This document shows, piece after piece, positions 3,000-19,340 of a stretch of 64,000 bases of DNA (the first letter of the stretch is position 1; each line of letters begins with the position of its first letter). Source of the DNA: Prostheceraeus crozeri. Lineage: Eukaryota > Platyhelminthes > Polycladida > Euryleptidae. Made by a program: the position numbers and the translations under genes. The stretch spans positions 372,001 to 436,000 of the forward strand of contig CAJQUW010008928.1 in NCBI GenBank assembly GCA_907163375.1, given 5' to 3'. The notes beneath the pieces were generated by a model. It did not search any database. It was not told the origin of the DNA and saw nothing but the letters and a program-made list of their open reading frames with translations.

Positions 3000-3012
3000 T
3001 TGATGTTATTGT

Positions 3013-3060: not shown

Positions 3061-3158
3061 GCGAGCCTTCCACAGTGAGAATCATTCCATCGTTGAATCA
3101 CACGAGTGACGGACGCACATTTCCTCTCTCTAGTTCCCTATTCTATTATCCAACTAAA

Positions 3159-3933
3159 ATGGTAAGTCGCTACTTTCCTCCCTCTCTTCCCTTGAACGTA
3201 AACTTAATACAATCTTTTCCATTTTCAGGCATCTACTCCATCTGCTGCGCTAGTAGGACAAAATGGCGGTCAAACGTTACAAGGTTCGCTACGATCAGAT
3301 CATCTACAACTGAGGCCAGTGGAAGGAACAACCAAGGTACATAATCCTACACCGCTACAGCGTAAATTTAAACAAGTCTTGCGTTATGACGATCATGGCG
3401 TAGTACTCCAAACGGGAATGCTCCCTTCCACGGATGTCAAGATAATGCACAATCAGTATGGTGACTACATACTGATCCCCGTGAGTCCGTACATTCGCCA
3501 CCAACTTGATATTATTGAGGAGTACGTGACATTAAATATGGACATTCCTACTCCTCTTGCTCAAGAGTGGAAGGCGAGAGATGACAAGGATACACCCTAT
3601 AGAAAGATTTGGGATGGTAATCACATTTGCCTACCGGTATCACATTGGTGCACTTACTATAAGAAGGAGGGAGATCATTCAACACCCATCACATGCGACG
3701 AGCTCGGAAAAGGTACTTGGGATATCCTTTTCAAAGTGAATGGACTATATTATGGTCGGCATAAGGATAATAAAATTGCCTCTCTCTCCATGCATATGGA
3801 ATCCATCCTATATATTCCGAAACCACCCAACGTGGACGACATAATTGATCAAATCCTTAACAGCAGTGGTACGAAGCGCAAGTCGGAGAAGAATGCTGCA
3901 TCAAAACGCAAATCAAAGAAGGAGAATTACTAG
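3159..3933 (+). CDS. Spliced early basic protein, unknown function (possible nucleic-acid binding)
   Basis: Exon 1 is just the ATG at 3159-3161, followed at once by the donor GTAAGT (3162). A 67-nt intron ends TTTTCAG at 3228. Exon 2 (3229-3933) starts with Ala-Ser-Thr and stays open to the TAG, giving about 235 aa. A shorter ORF from an internal ATG at 3319 is possible, but the spliced start is in frame, follows the promoter and is conserved in the second copy. I recognise no family. The body has conserved-looking aromatic segments (GDYILIPVSPYIRHQ, VSHWCTYYKK, NGLYYGRH, SILYIP). The tail is Lys/Arg-rich (KRKSEKN, KRKSKKEN) and could be a nuclear signal. Early position and basicity would suit a single-strand-binding or replication accessory protein; that is inference only. 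Confidence 0.75.
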
Positions 3934-3967
3934 TCCTTTCCTAACTCTACCCTATGACAATTCGCTT

Positions 3968-4093
3968 ATGTGCTTTGAGTGTCGTAGACGTGGTCTTATT
4001 AGATACATTTTACTTCTTCGTTGCCATCATATCATTTGTGTATTTTGTCGTGAAAAGCATCGATGTAATTCTTCATTTTGTAATATGTTATAG
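3968..4093 (+). CDS. Small RING-like zinc finger protein (5' end uncertain)
   Basis: The frame is open from 3845 and overlaps the end of the previous gene. The in-frame ATG at 3968 opens the conserved part. Ligand spacing is C-x2-C-x13-C-x-H-x2-C-x2-C, then two further Cys (x5-C-x4-C), which fits all but the last pair of a C3HC4 RING. The x13 loop is identical in length to that of the RING gene at 5175, suggesting duplication. From 3968 the product is only 41 aa, so an upstream exon or truncation is likely. In the second Polinton copy the first ligand Cys is Trp (63833 region). If functional it would be an E3 ubiquitin-ligase-like factor. Confidence 0.5.
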   Translation: MCFECRRRGLIRYILLLRCHHIICVFCREKHRCNSSFCNML

Positions 4094-4127
4094 AACGTTT
4101 CCTTAGATGTGTAAATTTCCGTTTTAG

Positions 4128-4670
4128 GCTTCTATCATCATTTTTATGGATTGTGAGGGTGAACCTGTACAGGAGCTCAGTGCTATTGCTATGAACAATT
4201 GGACATATCAGATTGTCAGTGTCTATCATCAACATGCCAACTGCAATCCCAATGTTGATCAATGGGCGAGAAAACACATTCATGGACTTAATCTGAAATA
4301 TTTGCAAGACTATGGCTTTTCTTGTGACAGTGCTCTTCTTATTGACTTTAAACGATGGTTAGCTGCTTTCAATGTTATACGCATCTTTTGTAATAATCCT
4401 GGTAAGGAGAGGAAAGTATTTCCTAATTTAATCATTGATGATATTTTGCTCCCACCTTGGGATAGTAGAGTGAATCAACATTATCATGAAGTCACGAAAC
4501 CTTTTAAGGATTTGTGTGTTCCTATTTTGTCTGTTCGTTGTAGTAGCTACATTCATAAGCAATGCTTCTTTCCTCCTTACCTCAGCACTGCCAAAGTCCT
4601 GTATGGTTATCATTGCTCGCTGTATGATAGTTACCAGCTGTATCTATTTTATCTCTTTTCAAACCATTGA
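4128..4670 (+). CDS. DEDDh-like 3'-5' exonuclease, probably spliced from the ATG-only exon
   Basis: The protein begins at ATG 4146, but an acceptor TTTTAG at 4122-4127 would join the ATG at 3159-3161 to an exon from 4128, adding Ala-Ser-Ile-Ile-Ile-Phe in frame. Those residues look like the beta strand that normally precedes the exonuclease I motif. Motif I is DCEGEP (Asp-x-Glu). LIDFKRWL fits the region before motif II, and HCSLYD near the end gives the H-x4-D of motif III. About 180 aa is a minimal size for a single-domain DnaQ-fold enzyme. This family processes 3' ends of DNA or RNA. PolB in this element also carries its own exonuclease motifs, so this would be an extra nuclease. The same acceptor is kept at the end of the window (about 63992). 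Confidence 0.6.
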   Translation, partial: ASIIIFMDCEGEPVQELSAIAMNNWTYQIVSVYHQHANCNPNVDQWARKHIHGLNLKYLQDYGFSCDSALLIDFKRWLAAFNVIRIFCNNPGKERKVFPNLIIDDILLPPWDSRVNQHYHEVTKPFKDLCVPILSVRCSSYIHKQCFFPPYLSTAKVLYGYHCSLYDSYQLYLFYLFSNH

Positions 4671-4761
4671 TTTATAATGCATGCTTGTTACCATTATTCA
4701 ATAAATGTTACTATGAGAAGAGTTGTTTTCATGCAATGGATGGGTTAGTTAAAGGGCGATC

Positions 4762-5172
4762 ATGTCTTTCTCAAACGACTGCGGAACATTACATTTTCAT
4801 AGGCAAAGTTTAAAAGGAGCTGTTCAAGATTATGTGATAAATTTTCATAAAGATGAGACCGACATCGAAGCAGTGGTCGATGATGCTAGCACTCTATTTC
4901 TAGAGTTAATGAATACATTCTCTGATAGCATTGTCATGGCGCGATTAGTTGCGAAAATTAAGTTTAGTCATTTTGGAAAGGAAGAGGTGGAAAGTCGCTC
5001 TTTCCATTTTGCTTCTTATTCAATGGAAGTGGTAGATCACCCCGAAGAATTTTTTAAAAGACATATGATAAAAATTGCTGAACGTCTTAACGCATTTAAC
5101 CATCATGGTAGCAGTCTAGTGATTGAAGCGATTTCAGATATTCACATTCAACTTTCCATAAAGAAAAATTGA
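4762..5172 (+). CDS. Standalone homolog of a PolB N-terminal domain, unknown function
   Basis: A 136-aa protein starting at ATG 4762. Its pattern (ARLVAKIKF, SFHFASYSMEV, FKRHMIKIAERLNAF, GSSLVIEAISDIHIQLS) parallels a region in the N-terminal part of PolB here (about 18360-18500: ERIQFHV, SWLNFHIQCL, FKISLLESHA). In many Polinton polymerases this region ends in a Gly-Ser-Gly-Trp-like turn followed by a beta strand. It has no catalytic motif I recognise. An ATGCAAT, one base from the late-type motif, lies 30 bp upstream at 4732. It ends 2 nt before the RING gene's start region. Confidence 0.6.
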   Translation: MSFSNDCGTLHFHRQSLKGAVQDYVINFHKDETDIEAVVDDASTLFLELMNTFSDSIVMARLVAKIKFSHFGKEEVESRSFHFASYSMEVVDHPEEFFKRHMIKIAERLNAFNHHGSSLVIEAISDIHIQLSIKKN

Positions 5173-5174
5173 AA

Positions 5175-5498
5175 ATGCAGTGGTACTTGATTGTAGCACA
5201 ACTGGTTTTCGAGCTATGTCTGCTCACTCTCGAAGTATATTCCTTCTGTACATGTGTCTATTATTTAGAAAAGGCTAGCAAATTCATATCTTCAAAAAGA
5301 CTTGCTATAGACATCAGTAACGGTGAAACTATGTGTTGTGATGTATGTAAGCGAAAGGATGGAAATGAAAAGCGCATCTTCAAGAGATGTAAGCATGCTT
5401 TTTGTCAACGCTGTTTCATACGTAATTGCATTCAACTTTGCAGATGTAACCACTGTGACATTGCTCATTTCGAGTGTCACTTATGTCGCAATAGTTAG
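5175..5498 (+). CDS. Membrane-anchored RING finger protein (E3 ligase-like)
   Basis: A 107-aa product from ATG 5175. Residues 2-30 are strongly hydrophobic (IVAQLVFELCLLTLEV, then FCTCVYYL) and probably form a signal anchor. Residues about 52-93 form a RING with canonical C3HC4 spacing: C-x2-C-x13-C-x-H-x2-C-x2-C-x10-C-x2-C, followed by more Cys. Architecture and size resemble small membrane E3 ligases that some DNA viruses use to remodel host surface proteins. That role is inference. The zinc motif itself is clear. It lies between the early genes and the structural block. Confidence 0.7.
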   Translation: MQWYLIVAQLVFELCLLTLEVYSFCTCVYYLEKASKFISSKRLAIDISNGETMCCDVCKRKDGNEKRIFKRCKHAFCQRCFIRNCIQLCRCNHCDIAHFECHLCRNS

Positions 5499-5503
5499 TA
5501 CCT

Positions 5504-5511
5504 ATGCAAAT
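5504..5511 (+). promoter_or_regulatory. ATGCAAAT motif upstream of core-protein gene
   Basis: First of six ATGCAAA occurrences placed in a short intergenic gap, on the coding strand, 29-46 bp before a start codon (here 46 bp before 5550). ATGCAAAT is the classical octamer sequence. Confidence 0.5.
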
Positions 5512-5549
5512 GTGGTAAAGATAGGTTTTAGCAAAGACTAACACGGAAA

Positions 5550-5906
5550 ATGGCGAAACGTAAAATGGCGAAACGTAAAAGTCAAAAGTTTTCTTCAGCC
5601 ATTCAAGCTCTCCGACGAATGAAAGCAAATCAGCGATACAATGCTATACGACATGCCAACGATAAATTCATTCATGAAATTATTTCTCATTTGAGAAAGT
5701 TGAGGACGAAGAAATTAGCGCCAAAACAACGAAAGTTACTTAAGCGATATGCTACGAAATTGCGTTTCATCTCCAATCCTAAAGTCACCCTTCAAAGAAA
5801 GAGGAAAACTCTAACACAAAAGGGCGGTTTCCTTTCAGCAATACTTCCAATGATAGCTCCTGCCGTGGGCAACCTATTGGGTAATATCTTTGGCTCTAAG
5901 CGTTAA
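5550..5906 (+). CDS. Small basic core protein, adenovirus pX/mu-like
   Basis: 118 aa, about one third Lys/Arg. It opens with a perfect 15-bp tandem duplication that gives MAKRK twice. The basic body (residues 1-90) is followed by a Gly-rich hydrophobic tail, KGGFLSAILPMIAPAVGNLL, and ends GNIFGSKR. Basic peptides with this kind of hydrophobic Gly tail are typical DNA-condensing core components of adenoviruses and Polinton-related viruses. It sits directly before the packaging ATPase. The family assignment is by composition and layout, not by catalytic motifs. Confidence 0.6.
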   Translation: MAKRKMAKRKSQKFSSAIQALRRMKANQRYNAIRHANDKFIHEIISHLRKLRTKKLAPKQRKLLKRYATKLRFISNPKVTLQRKRKTLTQKGGFLSAILPMIAPAVGNLLGNIFGSKR

Positions 5907-5908
5907 TT

Positions 5909-5916
5909 ATGCAAAT
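5909..5916 (+). promoter_or_regulatory. ATGCAAAT motif upstream of ATPase gene
   Basis: Lies 29 bp before the ATG at 5938, between the stop of the core-protein gene and the ATPase start. Confidence 0.5.
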
Positions 5917-5937
5917 GTTGAATCTCAAAGTAATAAA

Positions 5938-6555
5938 ATGGATTTCAGACTTCAATGTGATAAAGTTCTGACTGTATCACGTCCATCTCATGCAGGTAAA
6001 ACTGTTTTCACGCTGAATTTATTGGATAAAAGAAGGGAGTTGTTTAAGGAACCTATCAATCGAGTGATTTGGTGTCATGGTATTTATCAACCGTCGCTGT
6101 TTCAGGAATTGCAAAGTCGCAACTTTATTCGACATGAAGGAATTATTCCAGTGGATAAACTTCAGTCTAATGATGTTGTTGTATTGGATGATTTATTAAA
6201 AGAAAGTAAGAATTCAAAAGATGTTACAGATATGTTCACTCGCGCAGCACACCATAAAAGGTGCTTTATCATCTATATCACACAAAATTTGTTTCCTGAT
6301 GGAAAAGAAGCTCGTACACGAAACCTGAATACACACTATTATGCTATTTTCAAGAATCCGCGAGATAAAAGTCAATTTGAAATTTTAGCGCGACAAGTTG
6401 CACCCAGAGGATCAAAAGCCTTAATTGAAATTTTTCAAGCAGCTACTGAAAAACCATACGGTTACTTATTCATTGACTTTACGCAAGAGTGTCCGGAAGA
6501 ATTTAGATTTCGAAGTCATATTTTGAAAACTCCCATGATTATCTACAAACTATGA
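5938..6555 (+). CDS. A32/FtsK-HerA-type genome-packaging ATPase
   Basis: 205 aa from the first ATG (5938); the open frame upstream has no ATG. Walker A is at residues 15-22, RPSHAGKT: the GKT core is present, but the first position, Gly in this superfamily, is Arg (codon CGT, 5980-5982). Walker B is VVVLDD. A downstream sensor segment reads IIYITQNLF with Gln-Asn after a beta strand, as in A32-like ATPases. The enzyme would pump DNA into capsids. It overlaps the next gene by ATGA at 6552-6555. The Gly-to-Arg change may impair nucleotide binding in this copy. Confidence 0.85.
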   Translation: MDFRLQCDKVLTVSRPSHAGKTVFTLNLLDKRRELFKEPINRVIWCHGIYQPSLFQELQSRNFIRHEGIIPVDKLQSNDVVVLDDLLKESKNSKDVTDMFTRAAHHKRCFIIYITQNLFPDGKEARTRNLNTHYYAIFKNPRDKSQFEILARQVAPRGSKALIEIFQAATEKPYGYLFIDFTQECPEEFRFRSHILKTPMIIYKL

Positions 6556-7244
6556 GTTCTTATTCTCGCATGATTGTTATTCCTCAGGATGAATATGTAC
6601 AATTGACTGCCATGCAGCAAGTAAAGCAACCTCTTGCAAATCAAATGTATAGGAAAGAAATAGATTATCAGCAAAATGTTCACATCAAAGATCCACATCG
6701 TGCTGTATTATTACAATCGGAAACTGTTGAGCAATTGAAAAACTTGAAGAATAAGATGCGTGACTCTGTATCGACTGCTACACCTTTAGCATCTCGCGCA
6801 CATGCCATATCTCTTTTCAACAGTATTGAACCCCATCTCAATGTAAATGATAGAGGAGAAATCATTACAGATGAAAATAAAGTGATTGATGCTTCACGTT
6901 ATGAAGACTTGATTCAGTATGCGACACGTAGAAAGCGCCGTCAGGGCTATGTTCCACCTGGTTGGTCATACTTTCTTAAACTATTGAAAAAGCATAATGT
7001 GCCAAAATTTGCTTTAAATAATGAGACATTGAAAGAACTTGATTCAACAGTGGCTACTGCTCCAATGCTTCAGGCGATGAAAATGCCAACAAATTGGTTT
7101 AAGACGTCACCTGCTACATCCCCTCCCACACTCACTAAGCAAACAAGAGGAAGAACTCGACGTAGATCTACATCACCACTAAAACTAGTAAAAGGAAAAC
7201 GTAAAACAGCTCCTCCTAGGAAATACATGTTCTCAGACTATTAA
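6552..7244 (+). CDS. Conserved-looking structural-block protein, unknown function
   Basis: 230 aa, starting in an ATGA overlap with the ATPase, which implies a shared transcript and translational coupling. It begins MIVIPQDEYVQL-like after a short leader. It is polar and helical in the middle (residues 50-75), has a compact segment PPGWSYFLKLLKKHNVP at about 136-153, and a low-complexity basic tail rich in Arg, Thr and Ser that ends PPRKYMFSDY. Position between ATPase and integrase, and the basic tail, suggest a virion protein. I do not recognise the family with confidence. Confidence 0.6.
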   Translation: MSSYSRMIVIPQDEYVQLTAMQQVKQPLANQMYRKEIDYQQNVHIKDPHRAVLLQSETVEQLKNLKNKMRDSVSTATPLASRAHAISLFNSIEPHLNVNDRGEIITDENKVIDASRYEDLIQYATRRKRRQGYVPPGWSYFLKLLKKHNVPKFALNNETLKELDSTVATAPMLQAMKMPTNWFKTSPATSPPTLTKQTRGRTRRRSTSPLKLVKGKRKTAPPRKYMFSDY

Positions 7245-7245
7245 T

Positions 7246-7461
7246 ATGAAGCAGATGTGTTGCTTGCCATGTAATGAGCCGCCAGAGGTGAATGTCGTTG
7301 TCACTTGCACTTGCTGCGCCAGCTCTCATAATGAAACCCCTAAGCAATGTGAACACGATCGCAAAACCGCTAAAGCTAAATGCTGCAGTTGTTGTAAATG
7401 TAGAAAGGCAAGAAAACAAAAAGATGAGAAGGAGGAAAAAGAGTCAGTCGTCATCGACTGA
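7246..7461 (+). CDS. Small cysteine-rich protein overlapping the integrase start
   Basis: 71 aa starting at ATG 7246, one base after the stop of the preceding gene. It has 14 Cys, mostly in CC or CxC clusters (MCCLPC, CTCC, KCCSCCKC), then a Lys/Glu tail. Its last 38 nt overlap the likely integrase start at 7424 in another frame. Clusters like these could bind zinc or be palmitoylated. A competing reading is that this region is only the 5' extension of the integrase frame (open from 7292), but that extension is featureless, while this frame has a proper start and tight spacing. Confidence 0.5.
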   Translation: MKQMCCLPCNEPPEVNVVVTCTCCASSHNETPKQCEHDRKTAKAKCCSCCKCRKARKQKDEKEEKESVVID

Positions 7462-8506
7462 ACGTTTGAAGTCAATCTATTATGATGTAAAACATCCGGC
7501 AGGATTTGCATCTATCAAGAAATTATCAAAAGCGAGTGGTCTTCCACAATCACAAGTGAAACGATGGTTAAAGGGTCAGGCTACCTATACACTCCACAAA
7601 CAAGCGAAAAAGAAGTACCGCACCCGCCATTATATTGTTCATGACATCGATGAACAGTGGCAAGCAGATTTGTGCGATGTTGCCTCCATTTCAAAACATA
7701 ACTCGGGTAATAATTTTATTTTAACCGTCATTGATATTTTCTCGCGTTATGCGTGGGCTCAACCTTTAAAAACTAAAGAAGGGAAAGGAGTAGCAAAAGC
7801 ATTCCAAACAATTTTTCGAGAAGGTCGGATTCCAAAAAGAATTCAGAGTGATCAAGGAAAAGAGTTTGAAAATCAGCATGTGACAAGATTATTTGAGAGG
7901 CATGACATTGAGTTGTTTAGTGTAAAGAGTGCTTATAAAGCTGCACTCGTTAAACGTTTTAATCGCACATTAAAAAATCGCTTGTGGCGACATTTTACTG
8001 CCAACTTGACACAAAATTGGACAAAGGTTCTACAAGATACACTCCATGCCTACAATTACTCTATCCATCGTTCTATTGGACTCAGACCAGTAGATGTAAA
8101 TGCTGACAATGTAGATAAAGTGCGCGAATCATTCCAACGTAAACGCACTCATGTGAAAAGTGATGTGAAAATTGGTGATAAAGTTCGTATCTCAAAAGTG
8201 AAAAGTGTTTTTGCTAAAGGGTACCTTCCGAATTGGACAGAGGAGGTATTTACAGTATCAAGGATTAATCAAAAAGACTCTCCAACCACCTACAAGTTGA
8301 AAGATTACGATAATGAAGAAATTGAGGGTAGCTTTTACCGCGATGAGATTGAGGTAGTCACTGAAAGTGAAACATATTTGGTAGAGAAAATCATTCGATG
8401 TAAAAAACGGCAAGGTGAAGAATGGTGTCTTGTTAAATGGACTGGTTATCCTTCAAGTATGATCTCTTGGATGCGTCGTGCCGACATCTTTCATCTAAGT
8501 GATTGA
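7424..8506 (+). CDS. Retroviral-type (rve) integrase with C-terminal chromodomain; catalytic Glu replaced
   Basis: About 360 aa from ATG 7424 (MRRRKKSQ); the frame is open from 7292. An N-terminal helical region (SIKKLSKASGLPQSQVKRWL) looks like a DNA-binding domain. The RNase-H-fold core shows the first Asp in WQADL and the second in QSDQGKEF. At the third position, in ALVKRFNRTLK, Lys (codon AAA, 7952-7954) stands where the family has catalytic Glu. The C-terminal 40 residues form a chromodomain (YLVEKII, CLVKWTGY, ISW), which in Polintons is thought to bind modified histones. The protein inserts the element and makes the 6-bp duplication. With Lys in the DDE triad, this copy is probably inactive. 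Confidence 0.9.
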   Translation: MRRRKKSQSSSTERLKSIYYDVKHPAGFASIKKLSKASGLPQSQVKRWLKGQATYTLHKQAKKKYRTRHYIVHDIDEQWQADLCDVASISKHNSGNNFILTVIDIFSRYAWAQPLKTKEGKGVAKAFQTIFREGRIPKRIQSDQGKEFENQHVTRLFERHDIELFSVKSAYKAALVKRFNRTLKNRLWRHFTANLTQNWTKVLQDTLHAYNYSIHRSIGLRPVDVNADNVDKVRESFQRKRTHVKSDVKIGDKVRISKVKSVFAKGYLPNWTEEVFTVSRINQKDSPTTYKLKDYDNEEIEGSFYRDEIEVVTESETYLVEKIIRCKKRQGEEWCLVKWTGYPSSMISWMRRADIFHLSD

Positions 8507-8515
8507 CAGTGATTC

Positions 8516-8523
8516 ATGCAAAG
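8516..8523 (+). promoter_or_regulatory. ATGCAAAG motif upstream of pVI-like gene
   Basis: Lies 38 bp before ATG 8554 in the 47-bp gap after the integrase stop. It shares the extended form ATGCAAAGTTG with the motif at 12030. Confidence 0.5.
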
Positions 8524-8553
8524 TTGTAACTAACAATGTTTAGGGTTTGAGCT

Positions 8554-9009
8554 ATGAATCCAACTGCCTCATTTTATTCACGACCCTCCTATGTAAGTGG
8601 TGGAGGACAAATTTACATCGGCGCTCGCCGCCAACGTGGAGGTAGCATACTTGGTGCACTGAAATCTGTTGTAGCACCTCTCATATCCAATATCGGTAGA
8701 TCTTTAAAACGAAATGTTTTAAGTAATGCCGTTGGCTTTGCTGGTGATGTTGCTAGTGATCTTTCCAGAGGTAGAAGTTTTAAGAGCAGTTTGTTGAATC
8801 GTGGGAAGGAACGCGGTTTAAAAACATTGAAGCAGACCTTTGCTGGTGTTACTCAAGGAAAGAAATCACCTAAACGAATGAATAAAGGAAGGAGGAAACA
8901 TCGCGGAGCTGGTAAGGTGCGATCTTCAGTCAAAAGGCATTCACGCAAACGTCGCAGAGGCTCTAATCATTCATCAGGCGCTAAACGACGACGCTGCTAT
9001 AACTTCTAA
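8554..9009 (+). CDS. Basic virion protein, adenovirus pVI/pX-like
   Basis: 151 aa. The N-terminal third is Gly-rich (SGGGQIYIGARRQRGG), followed by an amphipathic helix-like stretch, SILGALKSVVAPLISNIGRSL. The C-terminal half is Lys/Arg/Ser-rich (KRHSRKRRRGS). An amphipathic or membrane-active helix plus a basic tail, encoded immediately before the capsid gene, is the arrangement seen for pVI- or pX-like proteins of adenoviruses and Polinton-related viruses. The next gene's ATG follows 2 bp after this stop. Assignment rests on composition and synteny. Confidence 0.6.
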   Translation: MNPTASFYSRPSYVSGGGQIYIGARRQRGGSILGALKSVVAPLISNIGRSLKRNVLSNAVGFAGDVASDLSRGRSFKSSLLNRGKERGLKTLKQTFAGVTQGKKSPKRMNKGRRKHRGAGKVRSSVKRHSRKRRRGSNHSSGAKRRRCYNF

Positions 9010-9011
9010 TC

Positions 9012-10289
9012 ATGGAGTGTAAAACTTCCGGGTTTTGTTTGTTTGATCAACAAGCCATACAGACAGATATTCTTAGTTCAAGTATTGTAGATTATCATCC
9101 TCGAACAGCTGAGAATGCTGGCCCCATTGAATTTGTTATTCCTGGTGGTAGTGATGACTACATAGATTTGAGTTATGCGATGCTTGATTTGAGGTTTAGA
9201 ATTCAGCAAGCAGATGGAACTGCTATTGACGATGCACATAAAGTTGGACTGAACAATTTACCATTGACTACATTACTTCGCGATGTTTCTCTAACGATTG
9301 GAGAGCAGCAGGTGGAAGGTGGTCAAAGCGATTATCCCTATAAATCATATTTCAATCATGTATCACAGTTTCATCCACCAGCACAAAAAAGTCATATGGA
9401 AGCCATGGGATGGTACAGAGATGAAGCAGGAAAATTTGATGTTGAAACAAACAGTGGCTTTGTAAAGCGATCTGCTATGATTAAAGATAGTAAAGTATGC
9501 CAGCTATATGGTCCGCTGAATTTAGACTTCTTTAGACAGTCAAAGTTTTTACTCTGTAATACCAGCATGCGACTCAAGCTGACATTGAATAAGCCTGAAT
9601 TTGCGCTGAATGCATTTGCTAAAGTTGACAATTTTAGAATTCATGTGGAAGATATTGCACTTTACATTCGTCGAGTAGTACCGAATCCAAGTGTCATTAG
9701 AGGGCATGCTGAAGGCCTTAACCGCCAAAATGCCATTTACCCCGTTCAGCATACAAAGCTTCTCACCTTTACAATTCCGAAAGATCAAAAGAGTTTCATG
9801 AAAGATGGCCTCTTTCCATCGGAAGCACCGAAGCTCCTCATGGTGGCAATGGTTGAAAATGATGCATTTAATGGTAATATAAAGAAGAATCCTTTCAATT
9901 TTAAACACAATCAGTTAAGTGAAATTGCTTTACGTGTAAATGGTGTGAGTCATCCTGGTCCACCCTACAAACCAGATTTTGCTTCGGATCAATTTATGCG
10001 CAGTTATGTTGATTTTATGGATGTCTTTGGCTTTTACAATACGGATGACACCAACGGACTGACTATGAAAGAGTTTAAGAGTGGATATACTATTTATGCA
10101 TTTGATTTGACTGCTGCCAGCGATATTAGTGCACCCTATCGTCAAGCGAACGTGCCTCATAATATTCGTTTGGATTTGACGTTCAAAAGAACACTACCTG
10201 AGACGATCAATGTATTAATTTATGCAGTCTTCGATTCAAATATTGAAATTACAAAGTATCGTGACGTGATTCTTCAGTATAATCGTTAA
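9012..10289 (+). CDS. Major capsid protein, double jelly-roll (hexon-like)
   Basis: 425 aa, intact. The N-terminus (residues 24-60) has VDYHPRTAENAGPIEFVIPG, then GSDDYIDLSYAMLDLRFRI. Residues 79-120 carry NLPLTTLLRDVSLTIGEQ and SDYPYKSYFNHV. The C-terminus has PHNIRLDLTFKRTLPETINV. This is the family often listed in invertebrate genomes as F54H12.2-like and interpreted as the Polinton/adintovirus hexon. It forms the capsid shell. It ends in TAATG, overlapping the protease start by one base, so the two are probably expressed together. Fold assignment is from family knowledge; no structure prediction was run. Confidence 0.8.
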   Translation: MECKTSGFCLFDQQAIQTDILSSSIVDYHPRTAENAGPIEFVIPGGSDDYIDLSYAMLDLRFRIQQADGTAIDDAHKVGLNNLPLTTLLRDVSLTIGEQQVEGGQSDYPYKSYFNHVSQFHPPAQKSHMEAMGWYRDEAGKFDVETNSGFVKRSAMIKDSKVCQLYGPLNLDFFRQSKFLLCNTSMRLKLTLNKPEFALNAFAKVDNFRIHVEDIALYIRRVVPNPSVIRGHAEGLNRQNAIYPVQHTKLLTFTIPKDQKSFMKDGLFPSEAPKLLMVAMVENDAFNGNIKKNPFNFKHNQLSEIALRVNGVSHPGPPYKPDFASDQFMRSYVDFMDVFGFYNTDDTNGLTMKEFKSGYTIYAFDLTAASDISAPYRQANVPHNIRLDLTFKRTLPETINVLIYAVFDSNIEITKYRDVILQYNR

Positions 10290-10750
10290 TGAGTTGGGTG
10301 ACTGCTGACGATATTAAGACTAAAGTGCAGCGTAATGCAGACGAAGCGACGTTGAAAGCTTTCGATAATGTCTATTCACTCGATACCTTACCACCTGCAG
10401 TAAATCACTATCCCATCTTTATTGTGCTAAACACTCATTCGCAGAATTTAGGCGGTGAGCATTGGAAAGCGATCTTTATTGGAGAAGACCGACGTGGTGA
10501 ACTATTTGACTCTCTTGCTCAACCTCCAAATATACCAACACAGCAGTGGTTGAGAAAACATACGCGTCAATATCAGCGAAATGAACGCATACTACAACAT
10601 CCACTTTCATCAACGTGTGGTGCTTTTGTACTGTACTTCATCTTAAAACGTTTACATGTATCTCGATTTGCATCTATTATTCAAAACTTTTCATGTAATC
10701 CATCCTCTAATGAAAAAATGATTTGTAAGTTCTATCATGATTTGAAATAA
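10289..10750 (+). CDS. Adenain-like cysteine protease (maturation protease)
   Basis: 153 aa, intact. The catalytic set is visible in order: His58 in GGEHWKAI, Asp74 in LFDSL, Gln103 (oxyanion) and Cys110 in STCGAFVLYF. The Gln-to-Cys spacing of 7 is the one typical of the adenain/Ulp1 clan. This protease cleaves capsid and core precursors in adenoviruses and is a Polinton hallmark. The ATG overlaps the capsid gene stop by one base. A poly(A) signal, AATAAA, overlaps the stop (about 10747). Confidence 0.9.
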   Translation: MSWVTADDIKTKVQRNADEATLKAFDNVYSLDTLPPAVNHYPIFIVLNTHSQNLGGEHWKAIFIGEDRRGELFDSLAQPPNIPTQQWLRKHTRQYQRNERILQHPLSSTCGAFVLYFILKRLHVSRFASIIQNFSCNPSSNEKMICKFYHDLK

Positions 10751-10776
10751 AAACATCATGTTGGAAAAATTGTTTT

Positions 10777-11322
10777 TTATTTTACAATCCGCTGGGTACG
10801 TACATACTCAATGAGATAGTCCAGGATCACATTTGCTTGTACATGAGATTTTAGTCCAGTAATGATCACTTTACTATTATGAAAGATTGCCACATGCACA
10901 GGTAGCCAACAACTAATGAGAGCTGCAGGAAAAAGTTCGGGTTCATAACACAAATTGTAACTGCTGGTACGAATCTTCAAAAATGATAGACTGTCACTCA
11001 ATTGAGTAGAGATCACCATATTGTCCACAGTCAGATTCGACATCACACACCTCTCCCTCTTCCATATCCGACGTAGTAGTCTTTGTAGCTCTAAGCGCAT
11101 TGACTGCGCCGATGAATGAGAAAGGGCGCCGAGAATCTGTACAGTCCCATTTGGGAAGAGTTGAAGATTCCGTGAATTGTTCATCTTCACCACTAACATT
11201 TGAGGTCGGCCCGGATAATACTTGCTGTTTGGAAGGTGTTGGTGTAATGTGGTGAGATCGATTTTGGTGTAGAGTCTGAAGCGACGGAGAATGTTGACGA
11301 TGGTGTAGCGATGGCGCTTCAT
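10777..11322 (-). CDS. TATA-binding-protein-like (TBP-fold) protein
   Basis: 181 aa from the ATG at 11322; the frame is open to 11466 but the extra residues look non-coding. Two TBP repeats are visible. Repeat 1 (residues about 7-85) has NIL...IDLTTL, KYYPGRPQMLVVKM, and NLQLFPNGTVQILGA. Repeat 2 (about 96-174) has SNLTVDNMVISTQLS, then YEPELFP (126-132), then VAIFHNSKVIITGLK. YEPELFP is the hallmark of the second TBP repeat, and FxxxK/T-V-x-I-x-G is the strand that carries the DNA-intercalating Phe. Length matches the TBP core. It is convergent with the protease gene and shares a compact 26-bp terminator region with opposed AATAAA signals. It would bind promoter DNA in the nucleus. It overlaps the upstream gene's C-terminal frame. 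Confidence 0.85.
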   Translation of the reverse strand: MKRHRYTIVNILRRFRLYTKIDLTTLHQHLPNSKYYPGRPQMLVVKMNNSRNLQLFPNGTVQILGALSHSSAQSMRLELQRLLRRIWKRERCVMSNLTVDNMVISTQLSDSLSFLKIRTSSYNLCYEPELFPAALISCWLPVHVAIFHNSKVIITGLKSHVQANVILDYLIEYVRTQRIVK

Positions 11323-11644
11323 GATGAAAGAATGAGTAAATTGAGCGATGCACCTTCCTTTTATACTTTTCCCAACTACCTTGATGAAATGTGAAGTTAG
11401 TATGAAGTTGGGAATGATAGAGTTGAATTCGCCGATTGTTGACGCGCAGCCAGATGCGATTTCCAATACGTGAATGTCTTTTCATATAGAAGTATTTCAA
11501 GTCCTTCATGATATGATGTAGAGATTGAAAATGACGATAAGATAAAGCAAACTCTCTTCTCACATTTCCAGTTGAATCTTTGAAATAGACGTTTCGATCA
11601 TGATCCGTTTCAATGCGTTGTAGGGAATCTAATTTCCAACTCAT
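10994..11644 (-). CDS. Small paralogous protein A with Ser/His/Pro-rich extension (PC4-like?)
   Basis: 216 aa from ATG 11644. Residues 1-105 align with the neighbour at 11667-12023: shared LDSLQ.I..D.D.NV.FK, R...L..R.F..L..IM.DL.YF, WL..., IQ.YHS and WEKY.R..HRSI. The order of a basic strand, a short Arg-containing turn and a helix recalls the PC4 single-strand-binding fold, but this is weak. Residues 106-216 are low complexity, rich in Ser, Thr and His, and are encoded in about 330 nt that also encode the first 110 residues of the TBP-like protein in another frame. ATGCAAAT lies 35 bp upstream of the start. Confidence 0.55.
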   Translation of the reverse strand: MSWKLDSLQRIETDHDRNVYFKDSTGNVRREFALSYRHFQSLHHIMKDLKYFYMKRHSRIGNRIWLRVNNRRIQLYHSQLHTNFTFHQGSWEKYKRKVHRSIYSFFHHEAPSLHHRQHSPSLQTLHQNRSHHITPTPSKQQVLSGPTSNVSGEDEQFTESSTLPKWDCTDSRRPFSFIGAVNALRATKTTTSDMEEGEVCDVESDCGQYGDLYSIE

Positions 11645-11666
11645 GATGTGTGGTAGTCATGTCTGA

Positions 11667-12023
11667 TTAAGATTTGCATAGTAGGGCGATGAACTCACGA
11701 CGAATAAATGTCATGATGGAGCGATGTATATATCTTCTATACTTCTCCCAATTGTATTTGCGAAATGAGAAACAGTTTGCGGAATGAGAATGGTAGATTT
11801 GAATTTCATTTCTGTAATGTTGAAGCCAAACTTGATCACCCAAGGAGATGAATCTTAATGTTTCAAAATATTCCAAATCCCTCATGATATCATTGAGGTT
11901 GACAAATTGTCGCCATGTTAATGTAATTCCTCTTGATGTATGACCATGAGAATTTTTGAAATGTACGTTTCCATCACGATCAACTCTGATATATTGTAGA
12001 GAGTCCAAAATCCAAGTCTTCAT
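11667..12023 (-). CDS. Small paralogous protein B (PC4-like?)
   Basis: 118 aa from ATG 12023; the frame extends to 12035 without an ATG. It is a paralog of the adjacent 11644 gene over its whole length and lacks that gene's low-complexity tail. The genes are in tandem with a 22-bp gap. The start is only 35 bp from the divergent ATG at 12059, so the two genes share a very short intergenic region. Function is unknown. Association with a TBP-like gene makes a role in transcription or ssDNA binding plausible but unproven. Confidence 0.55.
   Translation of the reverse strand: MKTWILDSLQYIRVDRDGNVHFKNSHGHTSRGITLTWRQFVNLNDIMRDLEYFETLRFISLGDQVWLQHYRNEIQIYHSHSANCFSFRKYNWEKYRRYIHRSIMTFIRREFIALLCKS
11672..11679 (-). 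promoter_or_regulatory. ATGCAAAT motif upstream of paralog A (minus strand)
   Basis: Reads ATGCAAAT on the minus strand, 35 bp before the ATG at 11644, so its orientation and spacing follow the gene even though the strand is reversed. Confidence 0.5.
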
Positions 12024-12029
12024 GATGTT

Positions 12030-12037
12030 ATGCAAAG
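12030..12037 (+). promoter_or_regulatory. ATGCAAAG motif in divergent 35-bp intergenic region
   Basis: Lies 29 bp before ATG 12059 and shares ATGCAAAGTTG with the motif at 8516. AATATAAAAAT follows before the start and may act as a TATA-like element. Confidence 0.5.
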
Positions 12038-12058
12038 TTGCAGATCAGCAATATAAAA

Positions 12059-13456
12059 ATGTCGTTTTATCATATTTTGCTTAGCAATGCGGCTACAAAG
12101 AGATTTACTAGTAATCGAGCCTCACTCTTTTCTACTCCCATTGATCATGCACAACAGCTAAATGGAAATTGGGAAGTGGGTGTCACTCAACTTGTTTATA
12201 GCAACTGTGTCTATACTTTTGATCATGAGGTGATGACTATTAATATGAGGCGTACAGCTGCTTATCAATGTGAAAAGGGGTGCCGAGTATACATTCCACA
12301 GTGGCCAAAGAAAGATCTCTTATCATGTAAAAAGTTTGTATATGATTTCTTGAATAAAGCGAGTAAACATATTGTCCAATTTACTCCGCACAATGATGAT
12401 TATAATTATGTGCATCATGTAGTTGAGAAAGATTGGATTGTTGGTTTAAGTCCAAGTTTAAGAAATGATTTAGGTTACCTCGCTAGCGCCTTGACAAGCT
12501 ATGATAATTTTAACGTTAATTACCACATAAGTGGTCATAAACAGTTAATATATCGAGAGGAAGCTTATTATGTAGATCTTATTCCAAAAAATGAGAAGAC
12601 GTTGGTGAAGAAGATTGTGATTAAGCCAAGAAAGACAAACATGACTCCTGAAACATTATTGAATAAATTTAATTATCTCCTTCGAGTTGATGGTAAACAA
12701 GTGGCAACATTGACTTATATCAAATCATCTAATCATATTGCAATAAGTAAATTAAATGATGATGATCTAGTATTAGTTTGTTCAAAAGATTTTCATCAGT
12801 TCTTGCGACATCGTTCTGCAGCTGTTCATGGAAAATCTGATATGCAACATTTACCATGTGAAAGGTCAAATCAATTTGATACAGAATGCTCCGTATCTTT
12901 ATACAGAAAGTGTGTAGAGTCTTTAGGTGGTATCTTACATGAAACAAGAGTGTTGATGCCTCGCATTATTACTTCGGTTAAATTGGTTGTAGATTATTTA
13001 AATGAAGTGATTAATGACCAACATATTTCATTTTCTGAAAAAGAAGGTACTTTGTCTCTCACTATAAGTGGAAAAGGTATTGAACTAATTATGGATAAAA
13101 CTCTAATGGACATTTTGGGTTTTGATCAAAATATCTTTAAAAGTGGTACTGTAACCAAAGCTAGCGCAGACATGTCACTATCGCGTCGTATTAACTATTT
13201 TCAGATCTATTCCAATATTGGTGAAGATGTACGTGTGGGAGATGTTGAAGCTCCATTGCTAGCAATGATACCATACCAGCCAAAAAGCTGCAGTATTTTA
13301 TCTGAGCATCCTTTCAAGAAAGTGCATTATACAAAGCTGAAATCAAACTACATCCCACAAATTGATATTGCCATTTATGACGATGCTGGTGCGTTGATTC
13401 CTTTTCATAAAGATGCTGTGACAAGTATCACACTCCATTTCCGAATGAAGAGTTAA
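12059..13456 (+). CDS. Capsid-associated protein (penton or fibre candidate), intact paralog
   Basis: 465 aa from ATG 12059. The N-terminal domain carries FYHILLSNAATKRF, FSTPIDHAQQLNGNWEVGV and QLVYSNCVYTF, a pattern recurring in Polinton-encoded proteins of many invertebrates. The middle contains repeated beta-rich segments. The C-terminal domain has YFQIYSNIGEDVRVGD, LLAMIPYQP, and IPQIDIAIYDDAGALIPF ending TLHF. The next gene has the same N- and C-terminal domains, so the two are tandem paralogs. In Polintons the non-hexon capsid proteins are pentons or receptor-binding proteins. Which of these applies here is not decided by the sequence. Confidence 0.65.
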   Translation: MSFYHILLSNAATKRFTSNRASLFSTPIDHAQQLNGNWEVGVTQLVYSNCVYTFDHEVMTINMRRTAAYQCEKGCRVYIPQWPKKDLLSCKKFVYDFLNKASKHIVQFTPHNDDYNYVHHVVEKDWIVGLSPSLRNDLGYLASALTSYDNFNVNYHISGHKQLIYREEAYYVDLIPKNEKTLVKKIVIKPRKTNMTPETLLNKFNYLLRVDGKQVATLTYIKSSNHIAISKLNDDDLVLVCSKDFHQFLRHRSAAVHGKSDMQHLPCERSNQFDTECSVSLYRKCVESLGGILHETRVLMPRIITSVKLVVDYLNEVINDQHISFSEKEGTLSLTISGKGIELIMDKTLMDILGFDQNIFKSGTVTKASADMSLSRRINYFQIYSNIGEDVRVGDVEAPLLAMIPYQPKSCSILSEHPFKKVHYTKLKSNYIPQIDIAIYDDAGALIPFHKDAVTSITLHFRMKS

Positions 13457-13463
13457 TGCAAAA
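13456..13463 (+). promoter_or_regulatory. ATGCAAAA motif upstream of second capsid-associated paralog
   Basis: Begins on the last base of the previous stop codon and lies 40 bp before ATG 13496. This spacing, equal to that of the other motifs, favours 13496 over the earlier ATG at 13466 as the true start. Confidence 0.45.
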
Positions 13464-13495
13464 GTATGCTAATATATTTTTCCAATGTGAATAAT

Positions 13496-15016
13496 ATGGA
13501 AAGTGAAAATAAGGACTCGTTTCTAATCTACTTACCCAGTAATGCTTCTATGAATAAATTTCCCAAAAATAAACCATCAGACTATCGAGTAGAATTAAAT
13601 CGCCCACTGCATTTAGAAGGTGAATGGGAGGTTGGCGTTTCTAGTATTTGCTATGATAGCAATATTCAGAATGTGAATGATTTGGAAGAAATGATATTGA
13701 CTCCTCGCACCCATGATGGAATAAAGATGAATAATGCATTTCAGTTCCCATACAATTTAACATCAGATGGAAAGTGGAACTATGAATGGATTCAGATAAA
13801 ATCAGATTCTTATGAACCATTTGGGAATGAGAAAATTATTAAGGCATTCAACAGTGGTAATACTTCCATCATGAAGAATAAAAATCAGAAAGCTTATGAG
13901 TTTACTATCTATCATTGGAGTGGGAGACAGTTCCTCCGCTTTCATTCTTTTACTAAAGGTCTTACGCTGAGGTTGGATAGTGAATTCTATCCACATCTTG
14001 GTTTTGGTCATGGACTACATCTAACGTCAATTGCTACTGCAAATGTTAAAAAAGTTTATTCAAATCGAATCAACAAATTTCATTATAGATTTAAAATATT
14101 TGATGAAGATGTTGTAGAATGCGAAGAACGCATCATTTTGAAAAAGCGTGGTGTTCAACCTTTATCACTTATTGAGTTAGTAAAACGATGGAATGAGACT
14201 GTGGGTAAGAAGTATGGAGAGAAAATTATGGCGGACAAAAATAAGTTGGTTATTCAGAAATATAATGACAAACTTACAGTTTATTTCTCTCCAACCTTGC
14301 GTCATTTTGTAAGACATTATACACCTATTATTGGAAGCGGTGTGGTGTATGGTTCTCATGAATATCACACTAAAGCTGATTCAGTTAATGATGAATGGTG
14401 GGTGGACATCTATTGCGATCGCATCAAGAAAATTTACCAGTCTTATGAAGAATCTAAAGTTGCTATCAATATAATGCCGCGTCTATATCATACAGTTGAA
14501 AGCTTCATTCATGTAGTAAATCCTTATATATAACAGAAGTTGAAGCATGTGATGAAAAGTAAATATGATGTAAAGACACACCACATTTCGTTTTCAATTG
14601 ATAATCAACGCGTTGTTCTGAAACTGGGTGATGACATTCAATGTCAATTGAGTAAAAATTTGAAAAAACTCTTTGGTTTTTCAATGCTACAAACTGTGTT
14701 TGCTGCTGCGCATACGATTGGTATAGAAACACCAATGACACTTGATAAACATGAACAGCACCTTTACATTCAAAGTGATTTGATTCTACCTATTTCTGTT
14801 GGTGAGAAAAAAGAATACATTTTATGCGATTTCATTCATGATAAAGACGCTTCATATGGAATAGTCGAGAAGATGTTTGAATCTATTTTCTATCATCCCG
14901 TCGTCAAACAAACTATACCCTCTATTGCTATCAAAATTACCAATGGTTTACAAGAGTGCATCCACGTGAAAGATACTAAATCCCTCATAACGTTAGTGTT
15001 TCGGAAAACAAAGTGA
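13496..15016 (+). pseudogene. Second capsid-associated paralog, split by an in-frame TAA
   Basis: The first part (from ATG 13496, MESENKDSFLIYLPSN...) has the same N-terminal LPSN...LEGEWEVGV domain as the preceding gene. It stops at TAA 14531-14533. The same frame then continues without another stop to 15016 and carries the matching C-terminal domain (LYIQSDLILPISVGEKKEY, IPSIAIKITNGLQE). Aligned with its intact paralog, the break falls in the middle of a shared segment, so it is a nonsense mutation or a readthrough stop rather than two genes. A poly(A) signal (AATAAA, about 15041) follows and overlaps an opposed one for PolB. Confidence 0.7.
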
Positions 15017-15193
15017 AGTCATTGTGATATGTTTATTGAAATAAAAATATGTATATGAAAAAGTCTTCACAGATATAGGGGGAATGGGCTGACTGTAGGC
15101 ATATATTCACAAGGAAGAAACGATCTCATGCGATACATAAAACAACCATGTATATCTACAAAAAGCAACATCAAAATACTGAGTTAAAGTTGA

Positions 15194-18100
15194 TTATGTC
15201 AATACATCTCCTGAATGTGGTAGCGTGAGTTTTATTCTTTTGGGTGGAGGTATGTTTGTGTCAGGATGTCCATGTGGAAGAGATGTGTTATGTCCTATCC
15301 AACACCTCTTATCCTCCCATGCTGAAAGTGCTCGTTTCTTGAACGTGTACGTTTTCACAGTATGAACTTGAGATTTTAAGATTGTCATATTGACAAACGT
15401 TATATTTTTATTTTTATAGACCTTATAGGAGCGATGTTTCATTTTATGAACAATGGATTTTGATATACCTTTAGCACGCTTAATACTATCTGCACATTCT
15501 TTTAGTTTCATGGAATACATTTTAGGACGGAGGAGAATCATTTCATCTATTTCCTTTCCTGCTGTTTCATCCTTAAAACAACCAAGTTTGGCTTTATTCT
15601 GTATGGATTAGAGTGGATGAGTGGGATTGTAGTTAGATGTGTCGAAATATTTTTCTAATGACTTGCCTACTTCATTAAAATTTAAATCTTTTTGAGTGGT
15701 AATTCCTAAAAAGAAACTATCTGTATCACCACCCAGCAAGCGAACCTCTTTTACGAGAGGGCATGGTTTTAATATTTTGTAGAAGAGTTGATACATTTCA
15801 AGCTTGGAATAATCTAAAACGGCTTGCCCAATATAGATGGGTTTGCACAACTCAACTTCTGATTTAATCATTTTAACACCTACAAGATCCTCATCGATGA
15901 TGTCTCTATCAATGAAAAGAGGTGATGAGGTCAATTTGTGATATTTTTGTTCATCAACGACTAGTTTGTAATTCATACGTTTTCTAACATCCTCCATGGT
16001 CTTTCCGAATAGACTGTTATTCTTATATTTATAAAAATCCTTTTCAAAATTATTTTGGGCGAGTGCACGTTTTTGACTGTTACTATCTATGTAGGGTTTG
16101 AGGAAGGCTTTCTGTCTAAATTTGATAATGCGGTGAACTGACTTTAGAAGCATGCCCATTTCTAAATAGAATTTTAATATGCAGAAGTGTACGAGATAAT
16201 TTTTCTTATCATATTGGGTGAGTAAAAGTTTGCGGCATGGTTTATACCTTGGCTGTCCACACTCTGTTAAGTTATTATGAAATTGTGACATGAATGGTGA
16301 AAAAATATCTTCAATCACTTCACCAGATTCAGGTGCGAGTGGGAAATCAGCAGTTTTATTTTTAATGCTATTTGGATAAATCAAATCCACTTCAAAATAA
16401 TATCCCCAATCACCTTCATCTGGAATCTTCAGTATGTTTGAAGGGTTGGAGTAATACTCAAGCTCATCTTGATTTAACCAACTAAACTCGGAATGAGGTA
16501 TTGGTTTAGACAGTGAACTGCCATATAAATTATTTTGGTCATAGTACTTTAGGCCTATCACCTACATCACCTACTGTTTCAGATTTTATATGATGTTTAT
16601 TTACAAATGTGAGACCACCGCGTATTCCGCGCTCAAATATATTATACATCTCCGGCTCTTGTAAGAGATGAATGGTCTCACCAGTCATTTTAAAGGCTGA
16701 TTTAAAGGACATGGCTGGTAGACTGACAAAGTGGACAGGATCTAATTTGTCTTCTTCTAATGCCACTCGTCGAAATTCCTGAAAGACATCAGCCAGCAAA
16801 ATGACATCTAATTCTAAGTAAGCGATCATATAATCGCCAAACGTTTTACAATCAAATTTTAACCATGCCTCTTGAGCATGTTCATAGTCCTCTACTGGAC
16901 AATCTTCACCCGTCAAATCGTTTTTGAATTTGTCAATGGAAGGAAGGGTTGTTTCATTTAGTTTAGACATTGAGCTAAAATACGCATAAGGAAAGACTCC
17001 TTTGCGAGTGATTATTTCATCCGTTAAGTTTGGATAGTGTTTCTTCAAAGTTTGACTATGGGGAAGAAACTTGAGATTACGAACGAGAGAAGCTAGTGAC
17101 GCTGACATGAATTGAAATGAATCTAAAAATTTTATTTCTAAGAAGACTGTCTTATTTTCTTTAGTTTTATCTACTGGTACTTTTGCTGTCATTGCCATGA
17201 ATTTTTCTCTCGTTTGTGCTATTACATTAAACTGCCACGATTTCATCTGGCTCAACCCTCCTTTTATGAGCATATGACTGTCATAGCCCTTAAAGTTATG
17301 AAAAATGACGGGTAGTACACGACGTCTCAACCTAAGTGAAAAGTTACATTTGGAGCAGAGTGCGTTTCTAAATTTACCAGTGATGTGATCATGATCACGC
17401 ACTTTCTTAATTTTATCGTCATCAAACGTTTTATGACATTTAGGACAGGATGTGCAACTTTCAAATTTTTGTTTGTCTTCATCTGACATATGTAGTGACT
17501 TACGCTGCAATTGGGAATCATATGATTGTTGAAATTTAGCAGCTTTATCGAGAAATTCTAGAAATTTTGAAATGCAATCTTCACCTTGCCAAGTATGCAT
17601 TTTGTTTTGTGTATTCCTAAAGTGGTCATGCCATACTTCATAGCAGGATATGGCTGCTGGCTTGTGGATGATATCATCAATGTAGCATTCTATGTCTGCG
17701 TAAATGACACGCAGGGGACTTAATTCGTCACCATTATCCCTATGTGAAAATATTTTATCTTTGGGCATGCGTTCCATTTGTAATTTACCTCGCTTGCACC
17801 ATTTATAGTGAGTTTCAAATTTATCTTTACTCCAAAAGGAGCGGATGCAGCGGTCGCATACAAAATGTTCACCTCTTTTAGAGTGCCCCAAGTGAGTGTA
17901 CAAGCGAGAGATTTTGGGAATACCACAGTAGTGCCATTCCTCCCTATCATCTTGTTTTACTAATAAGAGGTTGACTACATGTTCATAACAAGTTGAACGT
18001 GAATTATAGCGGGCACCCTTCAACCCCTTCTCCCACACGTGAACGACAATTTTAATCTTATTATGTTTTTCGAACGTTTCTACATCTTTGATTTTCATGT

Positions 18101-19166
18101 TGTTACTATCACAACCTTCAAAGTTTAGTTCATCCTCCCACTGTCTATAGCTATAGGTATGATTTCGATTCGCGTTGATATCATTATAGTGAAGGATGGA
18201 TAGGACTGCATATTTGAAACACTGTGATTTACAATCGACATTGATGACAGCTTTCTTATTATACAACGTTTTTGGTAGTTTAAATGTACCTCGAGCTGCA
18301 TGACTTTCTAATAGTGAAATTTTGAATATGGCTGAGTCCACACCATCAAAAATGAGAGCGCTGTCGCGTTGATTGAATTTATCTACATTTGATTTTAAAC
18401 ATTGAATGTGAAAATTTAGCCAAGACTCGCAGTCTACAACTTCGGTTGCGGAAGAGGAAGGAACATGAAACTGTATTCTCTCCGTCACTTGACCCGTTTG
18501 AAAATCTATCTTAATATATTTTAGTTTAAAGTAGATGAGCGCCTTCATTCTAAAATTGTCTAAATTGTTGAGGAGCGATTCGATAATGTTTGAATTTTGA
18601 AGGAGCCACTCAGGAAAATCTACTATTTGAGTATTGGACTCCATGCAGTAGTCGCGTACTAAATTATTATGTGAAACATTAATGAGGGAGATGGTAGAGG
18701 TACCGTTGGTGTAGCGATCATTTGCATGCGTGTGTTGAAGTCTGTGCGAAGATCGCTGAAAGTGACTATCAAAAGAAAGAGGGCACAAATCGCAAGGAAA
18801 GGAGATGTCATCATCAGAATGAACTTCACCTCCGGAGATTGACGCCGCTTTGCGTTGACACACACGTTGTTTGATGTGTCGAAGGAGACTGTGCTTCCTT
18901 GTAAACATATGTCCGCAGTCGGCACATTCCCACTCGTTGCCTTGTCGCGAGAGTCCTGAGCTGGAACTCACATCACCTGAAAGAGAAATCATTCTTTCAT
19001 CTCTGTTCAAGTCTCAGTGTATTGTTACAACCTACCTTGACTCAACAACTCTAAACTTTCCTCGAGAAGGGAGGGTGTTGGTGATGAAGTTGATGCCTGA
19101 AATTGAGGAAGATGCTATTAGCCACACGTTTGAGGGAGATGAGTGAAGAAATTTTCAACTTACCAT
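15194..19166 (-). pseudogene. polB: Protein-primed-type DNA polymerase B, spliced, broken by a frameshift and a nonsense codon
   Basis: Exon 1 is the ATG at 19166-19164. Intron 1 (19163-19097, 67 nt) leads to exon 2 (19096-19036, starting Ala-Ser-Thr). Intron 2 (19035-18977, 59 nt) is phase 1 and joins exon 3. The protein has three zinc-finger-like motifs (about 18930, 18800 and 17850). Exonuclease motifs are YADIE (17700), HNFKGYDSH (17290) and YLELDVILLADV (16810). An HNH/endonuclease-VII-like HDHITG...CSKCN lies near 17370. Polymerase motif A is YYDQNNLYG (16530), B is NNSLFGKTMEDVRKR (16000), and C is DTDS (15725). The frame shifts at about 16540-16562, next to a 9-bp tandem repeat. An in-frame TAA at 15608-15610 precedes the last about 138 codons. 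All catalytic motifs remain, but a continuous protein cannot be made from this copy. Confidence 0.9.
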
Positions 19167-19340
19167 TTCAACGAAATTATGTTTAAGCTTGATACTTCAA
19201 CAAGATAGAGACTTCACTCAAATATTACGTCTCAAATTTGGAATTCACTTGTACGCCTCAAATAATAACAGAATTCGCTAGACAACAGTTCACTTATGCG
19301 TCTCAAAGACAGAGTGAAATGACACGAATGTCACTTTACA

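Follow-up and report, generated by a model that had tools for sequence, protein, structure and literature searches.

A complete Polinton-type element in the genome of Prostheceraeus crozeri carries an intact gene whose 181-aa product belongs, with very high confidence, to the TBP superfamily, and we put at roughly one half the probability that this protein starts the assembly of preinitiation complexes at promoters of the element itself, i.e., those of its late or structural genes. Polintons generally are taken to depend on host transcription; a conserved element-encoded TBP implies that some of them direct initiation themselves, and it offers a concrete, testable entry to the timing and mode of capsid-gene activation. 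The coordinates (Table 1) refer to the window, the whole stretch of 64,000 nucleotides that was analysed.

Table 1. Features of the element and short motifs upstream of its genes, by position in the window
Feature	Position	Strand	Basis or remark
Complete Polinton-type element, 22,752 bp	1768..24519	.	Terminal inverted repeats, target duplication
ATGCAAA	5504..5510	+	46 nt before 118-aa core-protein-like gene (5550)
ATGCAAA	5909..5915	+	29 nt before putative packaging ATPase (first ATG 5938)
Putative packaging ATPase	5938..6555	+	Walker-like motifs by eye
Retroviral-type integrase with C-terminal chromodomain-like stretch	7292..8506	+	rve, E 1.5e-10
ATGCAAA	8516..8522	+	38 nt before the closely spaced genes of 8554-10750
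Putative major capsid protein, 425 aa	9012..10289	+	Position and length
Putative cysteine protease (Ulp1/adenovirus type)	10289..10750	+	Peptidase_C48, E 0.0013
TBP-superfamily protein, 181 aa, two repeats	10777..11322	-	Pfam PF00352, phmmer, predicted fold
PC4b, PC4a paralogue, overlaps TBP start	10994..11644	-	46% identity to PC4a
TATAAAAG	11358..11365	-	43 nt before TBP start codon
PC4a, 118 aa, probable PUR/PC4-type fold	11667..12023	-	Predicted fold
ATGCAAA	11673..11679	-	35 nt before PC4b (11644)
ATGCAAA	12030..12036	+	29 nt before 465-aa gene (12059)
ATGCAAA	13456..13462	+	40 nt before ATG 13496 of 355-aa ORF
Polymerase-like gene, two ORFs	15608-19010	-	Motifs by eye (GGDTDSF)

The TBP gene and its Polinton-type setting

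The TBP reading frame runs without interruption to a terminal stop and contains both YEPELFP and FHNSKVIITG; the remaining frames over the same stretch hold 14 and 7 stops on the same strand and 13, 12, and 9 on the opposite one. The Pfam TBP family (PF00352) matches the protein in two stretches with E 7.6e-21 and 74.2 bits (cut-off 22.9), and 35 of the 36 PDB sequences matched by phmmer at E <= 10 are TBP-type (best E 4.2e-13), the sole exception being TonB (E 1.9). The TBP fold is near certain; the structure model predicts the saddle, with low confidence for the stirrup (residues 130-138, pLDDT < 50). Identity to the 38 PDB TBP entries matched by fold amounts to 17-25%, and the fold matches in BFVD include named viral TATA-box-binding proteins (at most 21% identity among the 50 matches listed). 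The protein is basic, with a pI of 10.35 (family median 9.63; human core 10.13). The preliminary description, which reported a 181-aa minus-strand ORF with both TBP repeats, the YEPELFP hallmark, and an FxxxKVxITG strand, and which expected a saddle-shaped TBP fold, is thus borne out by translation, Pfam, PDB matches, and model alike.

The Polinton-type setting that it proposed is likewise supported, here by the terminal inverted repeats, which form four collinear blocks with 97-99% complementarity, by the 6-bp target duplication TATTTT at 1762-1767 and 24520-24525, and by the rve integrase. The element's ends read AGTAGTAAG from 1768 and the complement of AGTAGTAAG up to 24519. The C-terminal stretch of the integrase matches Chromo with E 3.1e-5 and 24.3 bits, just below the cut-off of 25.1. 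The putative protease reaches 19.1 bits with Peptidase_C48 (cut-off 20.7) and E 0.044 with Peptidase_C5, and has no match in PHROG. For the other genes of a Polinton, namely a protein-primed DNA polymerase B, a packaging ATPase, and a double-jelly-roll capsid protein, the element has candidates whose names are our own assumptions from motifs, length, and position; the 425-aa ORF, by its position and length, putatively encodes the major capsid protein. It has 258 related proteins at E <= 0.001 in the protein collection, no Pfam or PDB sequence match, and no significant PHROG match, a PHROG 'late promoter transcriptional regulator' (E 0.01, 0 stretches) having been set aside. Neither Pfam nor PHROG gave a significant match for the putative packaging ATPase. 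A frame break divides the polymerase-like gene into its two ORFs, for which Pfam and PHROG searches returned no polymerase family; the N-terminal ORF has an endonuclease VII domain and matches a C2H2 finger weakly.

The TBP gene had been placed between the protease and capsid-associated genes. On one side it lies 3'-to-3' with the gene of the putative protease. On the other side, beyond two small minus-strand ORFs, large plus-strand ORFs start at 12059 and 13496, and no family match lies behind the label 'capsid-associated' for either of them. As to the adjoining genes, the fold predicted for PC4a probably is of the PUR/PC4 type; sequence searches with PC4a gave no link to PC4 or PUR. PC4b is 46% identical to PC4a across 102 aligned residues, and its ORF overlaps the TBP gene, in a different frame, by about 110 codons. 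A nudix reading of the PC4 genes (E 0.059, under the cut-off; 0.014 as the best value, for one member out of five) was rejected.

At least two copies of the element family are present in the genome: a second one starts at about 61.5 kb (61490-64000) in the same orientation and runs off the window. Its longest stretch (62650-64000 versus 2791-4135) shows 95.7% identity, as against 86-94% for other plus-strand stretches of at least 100 bp, save one repeat block at 97%. Within the first copy the region 21000-24000 has negative GC skew, and minus-strand ORFs occupy 21818-22972, one of them coiled-coil-like. Outside it, at 30664-31851 (-) and 31939-32433 (+), lie a reverse-transcriptase and GIY-YIG-like ORF, by eye reminiscent of Penelope elements, and an inverted partial copy that adjoins it.

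Conserved and substituted positions of the TBP family

The protein collection yielded 61 TBP relatives at E <= 0.001 from 91 candidates. They are 31-78% identical to the window TBP in the alignment, which has 16 invariant columns, and all 62 alignment members match PF00352 (E <= 0.001). Such conservation argues against a decaying, functionless capture of a host TBP, which we consider very improbable: the TBP ORF is intact, and the uneven divergence between the two TBP halves is the only feature that would speak for decay. The presence of the gene in related elements, a point raised by the preliminary description, is supported only in part, by the 61 relatives known as proteins; an upstream overlapping gene of the PC4b type is traceable in 8 of the 14 relatives that have an N-terminal extension. 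A FastTree phylogeny of the 62 family members and four cellular TBPs puts the family on one long branch (2.48) with node support 0.0; giant-virus and TRF sequences are outside this set, which does not settle the origin of the family.

Family counts refer to 62 rows (the 61 relatives and the window protein), mapped onto human TBP in yeast numbering, and the DNA-face, intercalating-Phe, and TFIIB-stirrup roles are those that we take the TBP residues to have. In the C-terminal half V161 (62/62), F190 (61/62), F207 (62/62), and T215 (61/62) are kept, as are the TFIIB-contact residues of the stirrup: E186 (61/62), E188 (62/62), and L189 (55/62). Also kept are F116 and N159 (both 62/62) and N69 (50/50 rows with a letter; gap in 12/62). 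From its sequence the C-terminal half looks competent for DNA and TFIIB. Three of the four intercalating phenylalanines (F116, F190, F207) are present in the window TBP; the fourth, F99, is replaced by P in the window TBP, and 58 of the 59 family rows with a letter have P. This loss could weaken DNA bending.

A conserved stirrup combined with the loss of F99 would suit a decoy or inhibitor that stops host transcription or silencing by sequestering host TFIIB or by competing with host TBP. We hold this to be unlikely: a pure TFIIB decoy needs no C-terminal DNA face, yet V161, F190, F207, and T215 are nearly invariant, with N69, N159, and F116 likewise kept. Of the two functions proposed in the preliminary description, redirection of initiation to element promoters is the likelier one, because the C-terminal DNA face and the TFIIB stirrup are conserved and because the motif ATGCAAA, treated below, precedes most of the putative structural units.

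The N-terminal DNA face looks to have been replaced across the family by fixed, partly polar residues: V122 is Q and T124 is L, M, or F (both 62/62). L114 is Q in 58 of the 62 members, and 54 of the 55 rows with a letter have M, H, or L in place of V71. Of these family-wide changes in the N-terminal DNA face, the natural reading is a changed DNA target; weakened DNA binding or bending is a possible alternative. With 62 sequences and fixed DNA-contact changes, the family constitutes a natural experiment on half-site re-specification. I194 is L and G192 is A in all 62 members. Among convex-side residues, K127 is replaced by V, I, or L (62/62) and K138 by E or D (49/62), so that some regulator contacts of the element TBP may be lost. 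Positions 203 and 205 were left out of the evidence because their residue depends on the placement of a one-residue gap: an ungapped offset from F207 gives H and A/T/S (both 62/62), and the MAFFT columns give V or I at 203 and a gap at 205 (62/62).

ATGCAAA upstream of putative structural genes

The motif search covered, in one element and for the sense strand only, the 60 nt upstream of 18 start codons that we chose. ATGCAAA occurs before six of the 18 (ATGCAA before seven), 29-46 nt from the start codon; the runner-up 7-mer, the overlapping TATGCAA, reaches four, as against three in control stretches taken 60-120 nt upstream and downstream. Six occurrences for any 7-mer arose in 5 of 5000 Markov simulations of the upstream sets and in 1 of 2000 random sets drawn from the element, figures that apply to a motif found after looking and to start codons, unit boundaries, and structural names that partly were our choice. 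By unit, ATGCAAA precedes all five putative structural units and one of five others (Fisher p 0.024), in a test whose labels and units were chosen after seeing the motif and which leaves out unassigned genes. Per gene, ATGCAAA is absent directly before the 230-aa, putative capsid, and putative protease genes, which we assign to the ATPase unit and the 8554 unit; the gene run of the latter unit comprises a 151-aa protein, the putative capsid protein, and the putative protease. The 136-aa gene has ATGCAAT instead. The site before the 465-aa gene is at the same time 7 nt away from the start codon of PC4a, on the antisense strand of the latter, and the 355-aa ORF has its first ATG (13466) only 10 nt after the motif. 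No sense-strand ATGCAAA was found in the 60 nt upstream of integrase, TBP, and PC4a, nor in the 120 nt before both polymerase-like ORFs, which are outside the 18. The element has nine ATGCAAA in total, three of them elsewhere (7505, 10667, 18721), and over the whole window the motif is not enriched (26 versus 23.2 expected).

The TBP gene itself is preceded by TATAAAAG, which is not enriched in the window (3 versus 4.28 expected) and of which only the position is suggestive; since it lies inside the overlapping PC4b ORF (KYKR codons), it may be a by-product of PC4b coding. Its presence there would nonetheless agree with a protein that binds standard TATA boxes and merely raises TBP dosage, ATGCAAA then being a host POU/octamer site. 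ATGCAAAT, which we take to be the classical octamer, is exact at three of the ATGCAAA sites, and the fit of ATGCAAA to a POU/octamer factor counts against the mechanism that we propose. We nevertheless find this account improbable: the whole TBP family shows substitutions at N-terminal DNA-face positions, and a spacing of 29-46 nt to the start codon is a better match for a core promoter box than for an octamer.

The protein might also serve Pol III, or bind the replication origin or the terminal repeats, instead of taking part in Pol II transcription of capsid genes. In Pol III transcription TBP works with Brf factors, and the PDB fold matches of the element protein include Brf1 and Brf2 complexes; the adjoining proteins, with their probable PUR/PC4-type fold, could for their part act at origins. 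The ATGCAAA pattern before structural units favours the Pol II reading, and we regard a Pol III or origin role as doubtful.

Under initiation at the element's own promoters, the course of events would be as follows. Early after activation, host TBP would use a TATA-type promoter and the element TBP would be expressed. The latter would then bind boxes in the core promoters of the structural genes, probably ATGCAAA some 30-45 nt upstream of their start codons, and its conserved C-terminal stirrup would recruit host TFIIB and RNA polymerase II. PC4a and PC4b, from their predicted fold, may act as single-strand-binding cofactors that assist promoter opening. More tentatively, and with the odds in our view rather against it, this may be a Polinton lineage with a core-promoter system of its own, in which an N-terminally re-specified TBP reads ATGCAAA, a non-TATA box before the structural genes, and still docks host TFIIB, aided by the element's own PUR/PC4-type cofactors from the same block of genes. 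If true, a capsid-coding transposon of about 23 kb, with no recognised RNA polymerase gene, would have an early/late switch that works through a single TBP.

Known TBP systems and relatives of the element

The giant viruses and mirusviruses with a TBP are large, and many have an RNA polymerase of their own. The element shares with giant viruses (for example, the TBPs of Heterosigma akashiwo virus 01 and the abalone asfa-like B263R homologue) and with mirusviruses a virus-encoded TBP fold, here predicted; unlike them, it measures 22.8 kb and gave no RNA polymerase match among the 20 ORFs scanned against Pfam. Like cellular TBP and TRF1, TRF2, and TRF3, its protein would have a two-repeat saddle, central asparagines, and a C-terminal stirrup, the TRFs being compared by description only; unlike cellular TBP, to which it is 17-25% identical, its N-terminal DNA face is changed family-wide. 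The positions mutated in altered-specificity TBP are, we assume, 194, 203, and 205. By analogy with these mutants a few DNA-face changes could retarget a TBP, and position 194 is L in 62/62 members; unlike the mutants, which are altered in the second repeat, the family has its clear changes in the first. According to the review PMC10005294, TBP with three second-repeat substitutions reads TGTAAA; relative to full activity, a TATGTATA box yields <5% in tobacco, 0 in Drosophila, and ~30% in HeLa; and TRF2 does not bind TATA because one intercalating Phe was lost.

The closest working parallel, by analogy, would be the late TATT factor of herpesviruses (EBV BcRF1, CMV UL87), which, according to the review PMC4893493, has ~10% identity to TBP and binds the TATT box within a six-protein complex that recruits Pol II. 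The likeness to this beta/gamma-herpesvirus factor would lie in a TBP-like protein of a DNA virus and a non-canonical late-promoter box, the latter proposed for the element; unlike it, the element protein has clear TBP sequence homology, is 181 aa long, and belongs to an unrelated element type, its binding being only a proposal here. In mirusviruses a TBP gene cluster is present in 59% of genomes, and that cluster in 0% of Nucleocytoviricota (PMC10132985); TATA-binding proteins are sporadic in mirus-like elements of a green alga (PMC10675990).

Virus-encoded TBPs are already known from mirusviruses, giant viruses, and herpesviruses. That TBP is not a standard Polinton gene, as the preliminary description had it, agrees with the literature matches listed, among which no TBP of a Polinton, Maverick, or adintovirus is reported; their coverage is incomplete, most subscription papers being outside its scope. 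By term search, the main texts of PMC4028283, PMC10120064, and PMC11071308 are without 'TATA' or 'transcription', and PMC7786948 contains both 'TATA-binding protein' and 'Polinton'. If the proposed role is true, virus-encoded TBPs would extend from the three groups above to a compact capsid-coding transposon, with a bearing on the origin of viral preinitiation complexes.

Scans of the viral contig collection with the TBP, the TBP alignment, the capsid protein, the ATPase, and the capsid alignment, and of the genome contig collection with the TBP and capsid alignments, gave no confirmed relative, and tblastn of the TBP and the capsid protein against phage records gave no match. As a measure of co-linkage in relatives, one of the 61 TBP longest-contig sizes (7106) equals that of a capsid relative among the best 120 of 258, versus about 0.5 expected by chance, which speaks neither for nor against linkage. 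Two of the five PC4a entries have contig sizes (12876, 11119) equal to a capsid's and one (1771) has that of a TBP; this no more than suggests a linkage of PC4a to capsid and TBP genes. The close capsid relatives (76-86% identical), on contigs of up to 21,290 bp, have no size-matched TBP: they may be without one, or the overlapping ORF may have led to its loss during gene calling, and the window's own TBP is likewise absent among the database proteins listed. One capsid relative, P0069 (86% identical), is labelled as a bacterial MAG (AAGK05_12265, Pseudomonadota) and possibly represents eukaryotic contamination.
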